Of a stretch of DNA of 64,000 bases, positions 11,122-21,330 are shown piece after piece. The notes below the pieces were generated by a model that was given only the letters and a program-made list of their open reading frames with translations, ran no database searches and had not been told where the DNA came from. The position numbers and the translations under genes were made by a program. This DNA is from Planctomycetota bacterium. Lineage in GTDB: Bacteria; Planctomycetota; SZUA-567; JAFGGJ01. Each line of letters begins with the position of its first letter. The first letter of the stretch is position 1. Location of the stretch: positions 23,132-87,131 of the forward strand of contig JAFGGJ010000088.1 in assembly GCA_016930595.1 (NCBI GenBank). The letters run 5' to 3'.

Positions 11122-12651
11122 TCATTTCCAGTGCAATGACAGCGCTGTCGCAAGCAGGCCGGCAAGGACGATGCCTCCTGCGAGCAGCGCAAGGACAACC
11201 CTCCGCTTGCCGAGAAGACCGGCGAGTGTGTCTCGTCCCAGCAGCCGGTCGGTGTCCAGGTTCCTGGCGTCACCCACCAGCGACTGTATCACGCCTACCA
11301 GGAAAGTCGCGCTCCCCGCAAGGGCGGCTTCGCCCGCCCGCATGTTTCCCAGGTACGCCCACTGCACGACCGACGCCGAGTACAGCCACGCCACTCCTAC
11401 AGATATATCTTTTGCGTACGGTATGCGTTCGATATGCAGCCGGCCGATCCGGATCCTGTATGCAATGAATGAGTACAACGGCCCGACGGCGCCTGCGAGT
11501 ACAAGCGCCTTGACGTGCCAGCGCCAGGGCGGAATTGACAGGCCGGCGGCGACTGCGGCGGCAAGGAACGCAAGTATCGTGGCTCCCACCCACAGTTTCT
11601 CCACGCCGGCTCGATCCGTATGGTAGGGTCTCCTGCCGGTGAAGTAGCGGTTGAGGTTGTACGAGGACAGCATGAAGCAGAACACGTAGACCAGGCCCGC
11701 GCTCCAGTATCCCCCGCAGAGATACTGGTTGAGCGCGGCGGCAGCCGTCCCCAGGGCACTGACCATTATTGCGGAGTCGAACGCCAGCAGCCTGAACCAC
11801 GCGAGCCAGGCGAAGCCTCCCATCCTGCGCAGCCTGTCAACGACCGCCACCGTGGCCCAGCCGGGGGTGCTGGCGCCCGCGGTGACGCCGACGGTCTTGA
11901 GTGACCGGAGTTTTTCGGCGGGAATTTCATCGGCTGTTTCCACGTGGAACGCCGGGAGTCCGCTCTCGCCCGCTATTTCCACCAGGCGTTTCGTGTTGGC
12001 GCTGTGGTGTCCCCCGACCACCACGATTGCCTCGACGCACCGTGTCATCTCGCGCACCTCGGCCTGGCGTTCATGAGTGGCGCTGCAGATGGAGTCCAGG
12101 ATTTCCATGTCCGGGTACCTGCGGCGCAGGATTTCCGTAATGGCGGCGTAGCGTTCTTCGTTAAACGTTGTCTGGGCGACTAGAGCCGGGGCCCGGGGCA
12201 CCCGGACCGCTTCGGCCTCTTCGGGCGTTGCGATCACGAACACTTCATCTCCCGCCCGGCTCGAAAGAGCCCGGACTTCGGCATGTCCGCTGTCGCCGAC
12301 GATGATGACCGGAACGCGTGCTTCGGCTTTCTTTTCGACAAAGCGCTCCGACCGCTGCACCTTGGGGCAGGTGGCGTCTATGATTTCCAGTCCCTGCCGC
12401 CGGAAGTTCTCCAGTTCTTCAACGGCTATGCCGTGGGCGCGCAGGACTACCCGGCGGTCCGCGGCTTCGGAGGGATCGTTTATCACGTCGATCCCCTGCC
12501 GTTTCAGCATCTCCACCACCTGGTTGTTGTGTATCAGGGGCCCATACGTGCAGAGGCCGGCAGGGGCTTTTTCGGCGGCTTCCAAGACCAGTCCCAAGGC
12601 GCGCCTGACGCCCATGCAGAAGCCGGCGGTGTCGGCGACGATAACTCTCAA
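11122..12651 (-). CDS. ispH: Fusion: 4-hydroxy-3-methylbut-2-enyl diphosphate reductase (IspH/LytB) + C-terminal UbiA-like prenyltransferase membrane domain
   Basis: LRVIVADTAGFCMGVRRAL..., IDATCPKV, DSICSATHERQ (three IspH cluster Cys); C-terminal half hydrophobic with VGDARNLDTDRLLGRDTLAGLLGKRR UbiA-type motif; TTG start overlaps the upstream TGA (TTGA). Confidence 0.88.
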   Translation of the reverse strand: MRVIVADTAGFCMGVRRALGLVLEAAEKAPAGLCTYGPLIHNNQVVEMLKRQGIDVINDPSEAADRRVVLRAHGIAVEELENFRRQGLEIIDATCPKVQRSERFVEKKAEARVPVIIVGDSGHAEVRALSSRAGDEVFVIATPEEAEAVRVPRAPALVAQTTFNEERYAAITEILRRRYPDMEILDSICSATHERQAEVREMTRCVEAIVVVGGHHSANTKRLVEIAGESGLPAFHVETADEIPAEKLRSLKTVGVTAGASTPGWATVAVVDRLRRMGGFAWLAWFRLLAFDSAIMVSALGTAAAALNQYLCGGYWSAGLVYVFCFMLSSYNLNRYFTGRRPYHTDRAGVEKLWVGATILAFLAAAVAAGLSIPPWRWHVKALVLAGAVGPLYSFIAYRIRIGRLHIERIPYAKDISVGVAWLYSASVVQWAYLGNMRAGEAALAGSATFLVGVIQSLVGDARNLDTDRLLGRDTLAGLLGKRRVVLALLAGGIVLAGLLATALSLHWK

Positions 12652-14036
12652 CGCCCGTCCCCGCCCAGCAGCCGGCGGTAACTCCACGCAAGCAGGCACG
12701 TGTAGCGGTGGAGGTTCTCGCCCGTGAAGGCGTCGTGGTGAATGAGCCACGGCCCTATATCCCTGCCGTAGACTTTCACCGCGCGCGACGGTATGAAATC
12801 AACCTTGTCCACTGCGATGGAGTCGCCGCCGCCGCAGGTGAACCGCGCCAGCGCCACGCCGAGCTGAGCGGGACGTATTCCAGGGCCGCCGGGAATCGCA
12901 ATCGCGGCCGGTAACGTGCCCGAATGCTCAACATGGTCGACAAGGCCGGACGCCGCTGCCAGCAGCGTTTCCCGCGCCAGGCTCGTGCCCCCGCTTCCTG
13001 GTACCGCCTCGATGTGCACGGGAGCGTCTACGGCGGGCACGCAGAACGTGTCGCGGGAATTGCTCGTTGCCGCCTGCGCTAGGAGGACCAGAATCTGGGC
13101 AGCGGACAGGGTTGTCCCGGAGCGATCGTCAAGGTACGAGTCCACGCTTCCACCGGCCCACGCAGCAGCCAGTTCCTTTATGACGGATGTGTTCACCTTG
13201 TCCGTGCCTGTGGAAAACGAAGCCATTGCCTGTCGTATGCCGACCGGTTCGATCCCGTGTTCAAGAATCCGGTCGAGGTACCGACCGAAGGTTCCGACCC
13301 GGTGCGCCATGACGTCCGCGGGAACAAGCGGAGCGGGCTTCCAATCGTCGGGGACCGGGCAGGCGCCGTGCGCGAAGTTGACAACGTCCCAGAATTCTTC
13401 AAGGCTCCATTCGTTGGGGTGGTTGCCGTGGCTGATGATACCGTCCGGCGGGAGCTTCTCGGCAAGACGGGAAACATTCGCCCAGGCCGTTTCAAGGGCG
13501 CCGTCGCCCGCGCGGGCGTCGAAGGAAGCCCGCGATTTCCACAGGCCCGCGATATTGAAAACTCCCCCCAGTTGGGAAGGATACACGTCGTCGCCGAGGT
13601 ACACGGACCCGCCCATGTAAGCCGGTACGCCCCACGCCTTCATGGCGCCGTACACAAAAGGGGTATAACTGGCGCCGGGCTGGCCGTAGCAGACGATCTC
13701 CTTACCGAACGTATCCCTGGTCAAGCGGAAGCCCTCGGTTTCCCGTGAGAGGATTTCCGCCACGCCGTCCTGCCAGTCCAGGTGTTCGGTGTATTCCGCT
13801 ATGGTCGGGTGGGCACTGTGCAGGTTCGTGTGGTAGCCTATTTCAAAAAGGTCGTCTTTCAGGGCGTCGATGATATCCCGCCTGTTGCGTTCCACGAGGC
13901 AGCGGGTTTTCTCGCCCACCATCTTGAACACGGCTGGGATACGCCGCTTCCTGAATTCCCCCAGCAGCAGGAGCAGGGCATCGTCGCTCTCGGGATTGAT
14001 GTAATCCTCGGTGTCCCACCAGAAAATAATCTTCAT
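12648..14036 (-). CDS. Polysaccharide deacetylase-like protein
   Basis: 462 aa; MKIIFWWDTEDYINPES..., FEIGYHTNLHSAHPTIAEY NodB-like metal-site motifs. Confidence 0.7.
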   Translation of the reverse strand: MKIIFWWDTEDYINPESDDALLLLLGEFRKRRIPAVFKMVGEKTRCLVERNRRDIIDALKDDLFEIGYHTNLHSAHPTIAEYTEHLDWQDGVAEILSRETEGFRLTRDTFGKEIVCYGQPGASYTPFVYGAMKAWGVPAYMGGSVYLGDDVYPSQLGGVFNIAGLWKSRASFDARAGDGALETAWANVSRLAEKLPPDGIISHGNHPNEWSLEEFWDVVNFAHGACPVPDDWKPAPLVPADVMAHRVGTFGRYLDRILEHGIEPVGIRQAMASFSTGTDKVNTSVIKELAAAWAGGSVDSYLDDRSGTTLSAAQILVLLAQAATSNSRDTFCVPAVDAPVHIEAVPGSGGTSLARETLLAAASGLVDHVEHSGTLPAAIAIPGGPGIRPAQLGVALARFTCGGGDSIAVDKVDFIPSRAVKVYGRDIGPWLIHHDAFTGENLHRYTCLLAWSYRRLLGGDGR

Positions 14037-17707: not shown

Positions 17708-17750
17708 CTTATGGCTGGTGTTGTTACTGAAAAAGGGGCATTGAGAGCAC

Positions 17751-18872
17751 ATGGGTATTATCTCCAGCCTGGTACGAGGTTGGGAAAAGCGCCGCCTGGA
17801 GAAGATCGAAAAGAACTCTCCACGTCCTCCGGCGGAAGTCTTTATCCGCCTCTACGAGATTTATCACTCTGAAGGCGAAGTCAACGCGGCCAGCCGTGTC
17901 GCCAAGCGCGGCATGCGGCTCTATCCCCATAATCCCGATATCGGCAAGGCCTCCAGGGATATGGACAGGATGGTCCGTGAGATCGAGAAGGAGCGCCTCC
18001 GCCAGAAGATCGAATCCTACCCTAACCCCATACTCTATGCCAGGCTCGCCGAGCTTTACAAGACCGACGGCGAAATCGGCGCTTCGGTCAAGGTCTGTGA
18101 AGCCGGTATAAGGGCCTTCCCCGACTACGGCGGCACCTACCTGCTTCTCGGCCAGATATGTTTCGACCAGGAAGATTTTGACGGGGCTCTCAGTTACCTG
18201 GAAAAGGCCGCTGAACTCGATCGCTACAACTACATGGCGCTCAGGCTCCTTGCCGACACCTACATGAAGCAGGGACGTTACATGGACGCCGTCCAGAACC
18301 TTGACGCCATCCTCTACTTCGCCCCCGGTGACGAACAGGTGCTCGATGCGCTCAAGGCCGCCAAGACCGCCGCCGGCATCCAGGAAGAAGTTCCGCCCGA
18401 AGCCGCTCCCGCCGAGGCCGTACCCGCGCCGGCGCCGACTACCAAGGTCAAGCCCCGCGAGCCCGCCAAAGGCGCCAGTACCGTCGCACGCCAGATGAAG
18501 ATGAAGGCCGCCGCCAAGAAGCAGGTGGCCTACACGGACGCCATCGAAATCCTGAAGACCATCGAGGGTGTGCACGGTGCGCTGCTGGTTGACGCTTTCG
18601 GCCTTGTCATTGCCAGCTACCTGTCGCAGGACGTGGACGAGGAACTCGCCGGCGCCATGATCACCAACATCTACAGGTCCACTGCCAGGAGTGCCCAGCA
18701 GATGGGCCTGGGCAGTTTTGAAGACGGTGTCATCGAAGGTGAAAGCGGCAACATCCACCTGATTGCCATTCAGGACATGATCCTCGCCGTTTTCGCCGCC
18801 GCGACCATCAAGATGGGCCTGCTCGAAAAGGCCATCCGTGACTTTGCCAACGCTGTTCTGGAGGTAGGCTGA
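17751..18872 (+). CDS. TPR-repeat protein with C-terminal roadblock/LC7 domain
   Basis: TPR helices (AGTYLLLGQICFDQEDFDGALSYLEKAAELD) then IEGVHGALLVDAFGLVIASYLSQDVDEELAGAMITNIYRS. Confidence 0.85.
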   Translation: MGIISSLVRGWEKRRLEKIEKNSPRPPAEVFIRLYEIYHSEGEVNAASRVAKRGMRLYPHNPDIGKASRDMDRMVREIEKERLRQKIESYPNPILYARLAELYKTDGEIGASVKVCEAGIRAFPDYGGTYLLLGQICFDQEDFDGALSYLEKAAELDRYNYMALRLLADTYMKQGRYMDAVQNLDAILYFAPGDEQVLDALKAAKTAAGIQEEVPPEAAPAEAVPAPAPTTKVKPREPAKGASTVARQMKMKAAAKKQVAYTDAIEILKTIEGVHGALLVDAFGLVIASYLSQDVDEELAGAMITNIYRSTARSAQQMGLGSFEDGVIEGESGNIHLIAIQDMILAVFAAATIKMGLLEKAIRDFANAVLEVG

Positions 18873-19231
18873 TGGCCCACGGTATGGGTGATATTCTCGA
18901 CCGCCTGAACCGCATCGAAGGCGTCAAGGGCTCGATGGTCGTCGGGCGCGACGGCATCGTTGTCGCCAGCGATTTCGCCGATTTCATCAATGAAGATGCC
19001 GTGGCGGCGGTTTCCAGCGCCATTCTCTCCAGCCTCGACGGCGCCCTCAAGCGCCTCGAAATGGGCGGCTTCAAACGCTTCGTCATCACCGGCTCTGACG
19101 CCAAGATCGTGCTGATGAAGGGCCGCAATACCCTCGTGCTGGTCCTTCTTCGCAAGGATATCAACCTCGGCTTCGTGGGCGTCGAAATACGCGAAGCCGT
19201 AGCCGAGATCGACGAGCGCACACACCTCTGA
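18872..19231 (+). CDS. Roadblock/LC7 domain protein
   Basis: LNRIEGVKGSMVVGRDGIVVASDFADFINEDAVAAVSSAILSSLDGALKRL; TGATG overlap with the upstream gene. Confidence 0.88.
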   Translation: MAHGMGDILDRLNRIEGVKGSMVVGRDGIVVASDFADFINEDAVAAVSSAILSSLDGALKRLEMGGFKRFVITGSDAKIVLMKGRNTLVLVLLRKDINLGFVGVEIREAVAEIDERTHL

Positions 19232-19278
19232 ACCGCGCCGTTCGCCGCGTTTCCCGCGCGCATCCCGTCCCGTCGACG

Positions 19279-21330
19279 TCAATCGTAGCCTGTTATCATG
19301 TCCACTTCCCCGCAGGGCGCGTATTCCTTGCCCCAGCCTTCCAGTTTCGTATCGGACTTGGTTCCCTTGATGATATCGTTCAGAATCATTCGCGCCCGGG
19401 CGACGTCTTCAACGTTGTTGGTGAACCAGAAGCCGCGCGAATCCGACTTTCCCCTGTACTCCCTGTCCGTGGCCGGCCCCATTCGGACCATCTGCGACAG
19501 CAATTTTTCGGTGGCCTGCCGGTTTTTCTTCCGCGCCATTGCCAGGTATTCATAGTCGTTTACTGAATCCCGCCACAGCTTGAGACGCCGGCTTGCCAGC
19601 ACTCCCTTGAATCCCAGACCCTTACCGTTGTAGAGCACAAAGTGATCCGTTGTGCCTTCCGGATCGCCTGTCCCGGGACTCGTCTTGTAAAACACCCGGC
19701 CTTCTATTCCCATGGCGGCGTGTTTCCACGCCAGTCCCGAAAATGCGCCCGAATGGACGGCCAGGCTGTTTGTGTCGTACCCCGATGTCCCGTACTGGTC
19801 GAACATGACTTCGTCCGTGTTGTACTGCGATATCAGGTGCTGCGCACCCTCGGAATGCGTGACTCCCACAACCCATCTGTCCGTTACCGGCTTCAACCAC
19901 AGGGCCGCGTTTCCCGTATTGAATTGTTTTGCTTTCCAGCATCTTGTGCCCTTGCCGGCTGGAGTCAGCATCCTGTCGCACTCCCAGTGGCCGATGTCCA
20001 GCCTTGTCAGGACGGTTATTTTCTTCTTCGACGCATTCCGGAACGCCCATTTTGCAACCGACTGCAGGTAGTGCAGTCCCCTGTAATCGGCGGCATCCGT
20101 GGGTTCGTCCAGCTTCCAGGGAGTGCGGTTTCTATCCCTGTTGGGTTTCTGGTTGAAATAGATCTCGAACCCGGTCTGCGTCCAGCCTTTATCCGCAAAG
20201 TGATCCACGTACTGTTCCGCCACCGCGCGCCACGTTTCTTCGTATTCCCGCAGCCGCGGGTCCCGCCCGGGGCCTTCCGGTATGCTGCTTTTGAACGGAG
20301 TGAAGTCGAACTGCCCCTCCGGCGAACTTCGCATCCCCACGGGATAATTGATATTGAACGCAAGCGTGAAGATCGCCGGCGGCTGTCCGTACTTACCCGT
20401 CTTGCCGTCAAGCAGCGCCCCGAACCGCTTGTCGAACCCTTCGAACGAAACCACCTTCGCGTCCGCTCCCTGCCCCGTTACCGGGTATGCATAGCGGGGG
20501 GAACCTCTCTGCGAATGGTACGGCAGGATGTTCAGGAACGCCCGGTTGTCCAACGTCAGCTTGTATACCGCCTGTTCGATTGCTATCGCTTCATCGGATG
20601 TCGTGAAATCCTCTCCGCCGCCGTCGGACATCCTGCTGTCCATGTCGAACAATCCCAGCGGGCTGCTGTACGAAAGCAGGTCAAGCCGGTACGTGGGCGT
20701 GTCGGGCAGGACGAAGTCCATGACTTCTATGGAAAGACCCAGGCGCGCCGCCTCCCGCCCTTCCCGCAGGACCGTCAGCACCCCTCGCTTTTCCCCGGGA
20801 GCAGCGTCCTTCGGTATCCATACCTCCACCAGCGCCGCTCCCACCCTGTTCCCGGCGCGCGGCAATCCCTTTATGTCGATCGGAATGTCGAACGACCTGA
20901 TTCCGCAGACGCTCCCGTCAAGCGGGACCACGACGTCGGGTACCAGGTCTTTCGACTTGGTCTTGGACCATGCTACCACGCTGAAGGTCACCCTCTCGAC
21001 GGGAATGCCTTCCAGCTTCTCGACGCGGAACGTGTAGTCCTTGCCGGCCGTGGGGATTAGTATCTGCGCGGCTACTTCCTGGTTTTTCGCCCCGCGCAGC
21101 TTTATCGTTGCGCTGCCGGCGTCCCAGCAGGCGTTTCCACGCGCCAGCCTGGACGTGTCGCCGTCGGCCAGTTCATAGCACTTGCCGTCCGTACGGATCC
21201 CGTAGGCGGCGCTTGCGGCGTACACGCCGTTCGATGCAAATTTCATGGCTTCTCCTTCCACTGCGCCGGCATTGCATCCGCACGACCATCCCGTCCAGAC
21301 CAGCCCTGCGGCAATAAGCAGCTTTCTCAT
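19279..21330 (-). CDS. Secreted DUF4091-like (glycoside hydrolase-like) protein
   Basis: 683 aa; signal peptide; C-terminal LKLWRDSVNDYEYLAMARKKN motif typical of DUF4091 proteins. Confidence 0.7.
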   Translation of the reverse strand: MRKLLIAAGLVWTGWSCGCNAGAVEGEAMKFASNGVYAASAAYGIRTDGKCYELADGDTSRLARGNACWDAGSATIKLRGAKNQEVAAQILIPTAGKDYTFRVEKLEGIPVERVTFSVVAWSKTKSKDLVPDVVVPLDGSVCGIRSFDIPIDIKGLPRAGNRVGAALVEVWIPKDAAPGEKRGVLTVLREGREAARLGLSIEVMDFVLPDTPTYRLDLLSYSSPLGLFDMDSRMSDGGGEDFTTSDEAIAIEQAVYKLTLDNRAFLNILPYHSQRGSPRYAYPVTGQGADAKVVSFEGFDKRFGALLDGKTGKYGQPPAIFTLAFNINYPVGMRSSPEGQFDFTPFKSSIPEGPGRDPRLREYEETWRAVAEQYVDHFADKGWTQTGFEIYFNQKPNRDRNRTPWKLDEPTDAADYRGLHYLQSVAKWAFRNASKKKITVLTRLDIGHWECDRMLTPAGKGTRCWKAKQFNTGNAALWLKPVTDRWVVGVTHSEGAQHLISQYNTDEVMFDQYGTSGYDTNSLAVHSGAFSGLAWKHAAMGIEGRVFYKTSPGTGDPEGTTDHFVLYNGKGLGFKGVLASRRLKLWRDSVNDYEYLAMARKKNRQATEKLLSQMVRMGPATDREYRGKSDSRGFWFTNNVEDVARARMILNDIIKGTKSDTKLEGWGKEYAPCGEVDMITGYD

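Follow-up and report, generated by a model that had tools for sequence, protein, structure and literature searches.

Background

Fusions of IspH to a UbiA-type membrane domain have been described before. Rao et al. (2015, Chem Sci, PMC4746011) presented 47 sequences, all reported from sulfate reducers, as "IspH-UbiA Rosetta stone proteins", and called the UbiA domain PT_UbiA_5, which they described as carrying two DXXXD repeats and predicted to have nine helices; a full-length active protein could not be expressed. Our literature searches found no later work on the UbiA half, a further mention of IspH-UbiA merely citing Rao et al., and no report of the fusion in anammox bacteria. Published UbiA structures put Mg2+ and the diphosphate at ApUbiA Asp54, Asp58, Asp182 and Asp186, and Asn50 close to the reactive carbon (PMC11047366).

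The gene studied here lies in a window (the whole stretch of DNA that was analysed) of 64,000 nucleotides from a Planctomycetota genome. The initial annotation of this gene did not know its architecture as standard, a view superseded by the 2015 publication; the architecture is common in anaerobic bacteria. The annotation had named an existing, well-characterised family of the same build as a finding that would count against it; the family that exists is published and partly studied, activity of its UbiA half never having been shown. The window protein is a new, divergent member of this IspH-UbiA (PT_UbiA_5-type) family.

Results

The fusion gene and its surroundings

The ispH-ubiA gene is a single uninterrupted frame of 509 aa on the minus strand (Table 1), as the initial annotation had it, except that the strand was not stated there; the plus strand across 11122-12651 is interrupted by stops. 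The gene starts with a TTG at 12651 and ends with a stop at 11124-11122. The start forms part of a TTGA that also holds the stop codon of the upstream gene, so that the two genes share four bases, and it matches the N-terminus M/L-R/K-V-I-L-A seen across the fused homologues. The upstream gene has no Pfam or NCBIfam match and by eye resembles a polysaccharide deacetylase. Three minus-strand ORFs adjacent to one another at 17724-18758, 18770-19282 and 19279-21330 (344, 170 and 683 aa) have no Pfam match at E<=0.01. The neighbour genes include no consistent partner pointing to an acceptor.

Table 1. Features of the ispH-ubiA locus in window coordinates.
Feature	Position	Strand	Basis
ispH-ubiA fusion gene	11122..12651	-	ORF; start agrees with homologue N-termini; TTGA overlap
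Upstream gene, 462 aa (context only, outside the fusion)	12648..14036	-	Stop overlaps ispH-ubiA start
IspH/LytB domain, residues 3-274	11830..12645	-	Pfam LYTB, TIGR00216, PDB 3DNF
GFCMG, first Fe-S Cys (C12), from residue 10	12610..12624	-	Motif position; 93/93 conservation
ATCPK, second Fe-S Cys (C95), from residue 93	12361..12375	-	Motif position; 93/93 conservation
SICSATHE, third Fe-S Cys (C189), from residue 187	12070..12093	-	Motif position; 93/93 conservation
UbiA-like domain, residues 281-509, seven predicted helices (TM1-TM7)	11125..11811	-	PF01040, fused-domain profile, AF2, Foldseek
Motif I site, N334-R-Y-F-T338-G-R-R-P342 replacing N[DR]xxDxxxD, with the Asn retained and neither Asp	11626..11652	-	Column counts, hhalign
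ERIPYAK, window form of [KR]-D-I-P-[GA]-S-K, between TM4 and TM5	11410..11430	-	Column counts
Motif II, D461ARN464LDTD468RLLG; D182 equivalent is Asn, D186 kept	11236..11271	-	Column counts, hhalign

The fusion is genuine and widespread

Full-length homologues that align over both halves in one frame were found in 15 of 60 relatives, and named genomes added about 75 further fused proteins of the same architecture. When the phylum was surveyed with a profile of the C-half, 146 of the 392 genomes gave a match; about 70 matches were strong and lay mostly in frames of 570-680 aa, as would be expected of a fusion from its size. The fused architecture was seen in sulfate reducers, syntrophs, Nitrospirota, Nitrospinota, Chitinivibrionales and the anammox Planctomycetota Brocadia, Jettenia and Scalindua. 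UbiA matches fall at identical coordinates in G233, a member of the surveyed phylum, and in the Brocadia pituitae record, which places the window's genome and B. pituitae in one phylum. Because the homologues were gathered mainly via their IspH motifs, the sample leans towards fused proteins that resemble the one in the window, where IspH is likewise followed by a UbiA-type membrane domain in one frame. Residue counts given below refer to 93 fused proteins.

That an assembly or frameshift artefact has joined two separate genes, for which the initial annotation suggested a check at about 11.7 kb, is highly improbable. The same junction is found, collinear, in about 90 homologues of several phyla, among them those of Desulfocarbo indianensis strain SCBM and of a complete Brocadia genome, and the homologues align straight across it, which rules out a frameshift or misassembly at that point. 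The junction gives such an artefact no support, and only the short 3' end of the gene is unusual.

The IspH half

The N-terminal half is a full-length IspH domain that covers positions 1-266 of the 267 in PF02401 (LYTB; E=5.6e-85), scores 265.7 bits against NCBIfam TIGR00216, above the cut-off, and matches the PDB IspH 3DNF at E=9e-49. The annotation of a full IspH carrying all three cluster motifs was thus borne out. Cys12, Cys95, Cys189, His41, His73, His123, Glu125, Thr162, Ser217, Asn219 and Ser261 are invariant in all 93 fused proteins, the window protein included. The window residues include the equivalents of E. coli His41, His124, Glu126, Thr167, Ser225, Asn227 and Ser269, with which PDB mutant names agree. 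Because the Fe-S and substrate residues are intact, because the fusion is the only IspH found in its genome (82% complete), and because IspG and a polyprenyl synthase were also found there, the IspH half is very likely the cell's working HMBPP reductase, making IPP and DMAPP.

In family f4 of the same class (G003, G005, G007, G009, G011, G015 and G017) the only IspH found is a long, divergent one, in frames of 411-474 aa that aligned in two pieces, so that no fewer than two widely divergent lineages of IspH occur within a single class.

A predicted UbiA fold that stops after seven helices

The initial annotation called the C-terminal half UbiA-like, a correct label that is weakly supported when the window copy is taken alone: PF01040 gives E=1.8e-5 and 24.6 bits, below its cut-off of 34.2, and a PDB search with the C-half as a single sequence returned chance matches only. 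A profile of the fused domain, with 38 rows of which the window sequence is itself one, scores 149 bits over positions 6-248 of 300, and by this collinear homology over the rest of its length the protein can be filed as a divergent, truncated member of the IspH-UbiA family. Structure prediction, which had also been proposed, yields an AlphaFold2 model with a mean pLDDT of 87.9 and seven transmembrane helices, placed by Foldseek in the UbiA fold (AfUbiA 4TQ3, probability 1.00, target-normalised TM 0.52). The model of the Brocadia homologue (pLDDT 92) has nine transmembrane helices and a TM of 0.68 to ApUbiA 4OD5. Across the family, the C-half matches NCBIfam PRK13591 'prenyltransferase' in 37 of 38 members scanned (best E=2e-19); this model outscores every quinone-pathway model, and in at least one member its score lies below the curated cut-off.

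The window protein ends after TM7, with TM8 and TM9 (about 60-70 aa) absent, and has seven of the nine helices of the family; fused homologues measure 560-593 aa, apart from those cut by contig ends. This shortness was overlooked in the initial annotation. No frame downstream of the stop encodes the missing helices, and they are therefore not hidden in another frame; the truncation at 11122 is read from one assembly. GC at the three codon positions is 0.64/0.50/0.76 in the C-half versus 0.69/0.46/0.76 in the IspH half, keeping the pattern of a translated gene. Since this pattern is kept, and since motif II and N334 are recognisable, the C-half is not yet junk and could have a non-canonical function.

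Loss of catalytic residues

Catalytic positions were mapped by hhalign profile-profile alignment to canonical UbiA proteins from the same phylum. ApUbiA N50, D54, D58, D182 and D186 fall on window residues 334, 338, 342, 464 and 468, which are N, T, P, N and D, so that one of the four Mg-binding Asp is left; the motif I columns sit in a loop of variable length, and the D58 column is especially approximate. Both motifs lie where they had been annotated, NLNRYFTGRRPYHTDRAG at residue 332 and VGDARNLDTDRLLGRDTLAGLLG at residue 459. At motif I the window reads NRYFTGRRP in place of N[DR]xxDxxxD with its Mg-binding Asp, and at motif II the DxxxD has become N464xxxD468.

The first Asp motif had rightly been called degenerate, and this is a trait of the whole fused family. 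N50 is kept in 88/93 proteins, D54 in 31/93, D58 in 21/93, D182 in 66/93 and D186 in 86/93, and in none of the 93 do all four Mg-binding Asp occur together. The two DXXXD repeats of Rao et al., absent from the window protein, are not general in the fused family either, and on the alignments compared here they do not define membership in it. The Arg that follows the motif I Asn is no anomaly, as NRxxDxxxD is likewise found in canonical proteins of the phylum; what sets motif I apart in the alignment is the missing pair of Asp. The family conserves an invariant Trp and a KDIPGSK motif, a KDIP[GA]SK segment with P in 84/93, S in 84/93 and K in 82/93. The Tyr at the ApUbiA Y115 position is retained. 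For the YxxxK of the S4-S5 loop, Tyr393 is kept and there is no Lys at Y+4, in an alignment made ambiguous by the inserted KDIPxxK segment.

Loss of the UbiA half and quinone context

IspH-only proteins (L116, L013, L022, L024, L025, L026 and L027) lie inside the fused clade of the IspH tree, in which several deep branches are weak; the best tree requires 8 state changes, and well-supported branches force at least 5. No UbiA remnants were found beside the IspH-only genes. Because IspH-only relatives are nested among the fused ones, the fusion is probably old and its UbiA half lost several times, and a part of the state changes may instead reflect independent gains. The window protein, with IspH kept, the membrane domain shortened and most catalytic residues gone, fits an intermediate in this process.

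Apart from the C-half, no UbiA-like protein was found in the window's genome, and neither MqnA/D family members nor MenB were found there; both statements are provisional, the genome being 82% complete. A role in menaquinone synthesis was rejected on this ground, and in anammox hosts that use the futalosine pathway, canonical UbiA proteins are encoded separately from the fusion. As neither MqnA/D nor MenB was found, a quinone role for the window C-half is unlikely.

Discussion

The reading that we favour, and consider probable, is that the window protein is an active, membrane-tethered IspH whose UbiA-like anchor is no longer a standard prenyltransferase. The IspH half would reduce HMBPP to give IPP and DMAPP, and the C-terminal domain of the UbiA superfamily would hold it at the cytoplasmic face of the membrane. 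That the protein is membrane-bound is almost certain. With three of the four Mg-binding Asp and TM8-TM9 gone, the C-half is very probably no longer capable of canonical Mg2+-dependent prenyl transfer; it would persist as an anchoring or lipid-binding module that is itself being lost, as has already happened in several IspH-only relatives. Telling against this reading are the still recognisable motif II and N334, the coding-type GC pattern of the C-half, and the KDIPGSK motif and invariant Trp conserved in the family. The initial annotation had proposed a membrane-tethered isoprenoid enzyme with a possibly atypical prenyl acceptor. Its membrane tethering is very likely right. Its atypical acceptor presumes catalysis, and one remaining Mg-binding Asp and two missing helices make a membrane anchor or a non-canonical role likelier than a new acceptor.

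The published alternative is that of a Rosetta-stone enzyme, proposed by Rao et al. (PMC4746011), in which an active UbiA half would prenylate a non-quinone acceptor with substrate supplied locally by IspH. The predicted UbiA fold, the conserved motif II Asp and Asn50 positions and the retained Tyr would suit such an enzyme, as would the dxs and polyprenyl synthase genes (identified by eye) that occur close to the fused gene in some Syntrophales. However, motif I Asp are mostly missing family-wide, and the losses in the window copy go further; UbiA enzymes use long prenyl diphosphates, whereas IspH makes IPP and DMAPP; and many host genomes hold a separate canonical UbiA. We therefore regard an active prenyltransferase as unlikely. 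Less likely again is a sensing or redox role, in which the UbiA-like half would bind a polyprenyl lipid or a quinone and control IspH or pass electrons to it. Conserved pocket residues alongside incomplete catalytic Asp, and host lineages that look anaerobic by name, would agree with it, but no menaquinone pathway was detected in the window's genome (82% complete) and IspH-only relatives manage without a UbiA half. Membrane anchoring of a working IspH is thus preferred to both.

More tentatively, and with some doubt, the UbiA-like halves might form a pseudo-prenyltransferase family of IspH membrane anchors or polyprenyl-lipid sensors, gained before its spread over several anaerobic phyla. In Planctomycetota the domain would be undergoing stepwise erosion, and the window protein would represent a halfway stage.

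These results establish the architecture as known and biological, extend its range well past the sulfate reducers of 2015 to include anammox bacteria, and correct the view that the two Asp motifs have stayed intact. With the set of catalytic Asp incomplete and the UbiA half apparently lost more than once, the choice between enzyme and anchor is open to direct testing. What distinguishes the window copy is solely the loss of TM8 and TM9 and of most residues expected for catalysis, a natural truncation that could serve as a control.

Comparison with known systems

IspH-RPS1 fusions, found in Firmicutes and others, share with the window protein an extra domain C-terminal to IspH, but their partner consists of ribosomal protein S1 repeats instead of a membrane domain. 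With the structurally characterised enzymes ApUbiA (4OD5), AfUbiA (4TQ3) and MjDGGGPS (6M31) the C-half has in common its fold (probability 1.00 in Foldseek) and a motif II that can still be recognised, at about 14% identity; unlike them it has no motif I Asp and it carries the extra conserved KDIP[GA]SK segment, and the window copy also falls two helices short. Three standalone UbiA-like proteins from the same phylum, at L129:1006-2073 (-), L131:602-1735 (+) and L132:727-1572 (-), combine DRxxD with KDxPxxK. They resemble the fused domain in the KDxPxxK segment, in [DN]-R at motif I and in a similar motif II, and differ from it in being unfused to IspH and in keeping Asp at the D54 position; among the unfused proteins seen in this analysis, they are apparently the nearest relatives that the IspH-fused domain has. 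The nearest match remains the IspH-UbiA family of Rao et al., with the same order of IspH and UbiA-like membrane domain, the same domain type and full-length homologues of about 560-590 aa. Whereas those 47 sequences came from sulfate reducers and were described with two DXXXD repeats, the window protein comes from Planctomycetota, has 509 aa, lacks TM8-9 and retains one of the four Mg-binding Asp.
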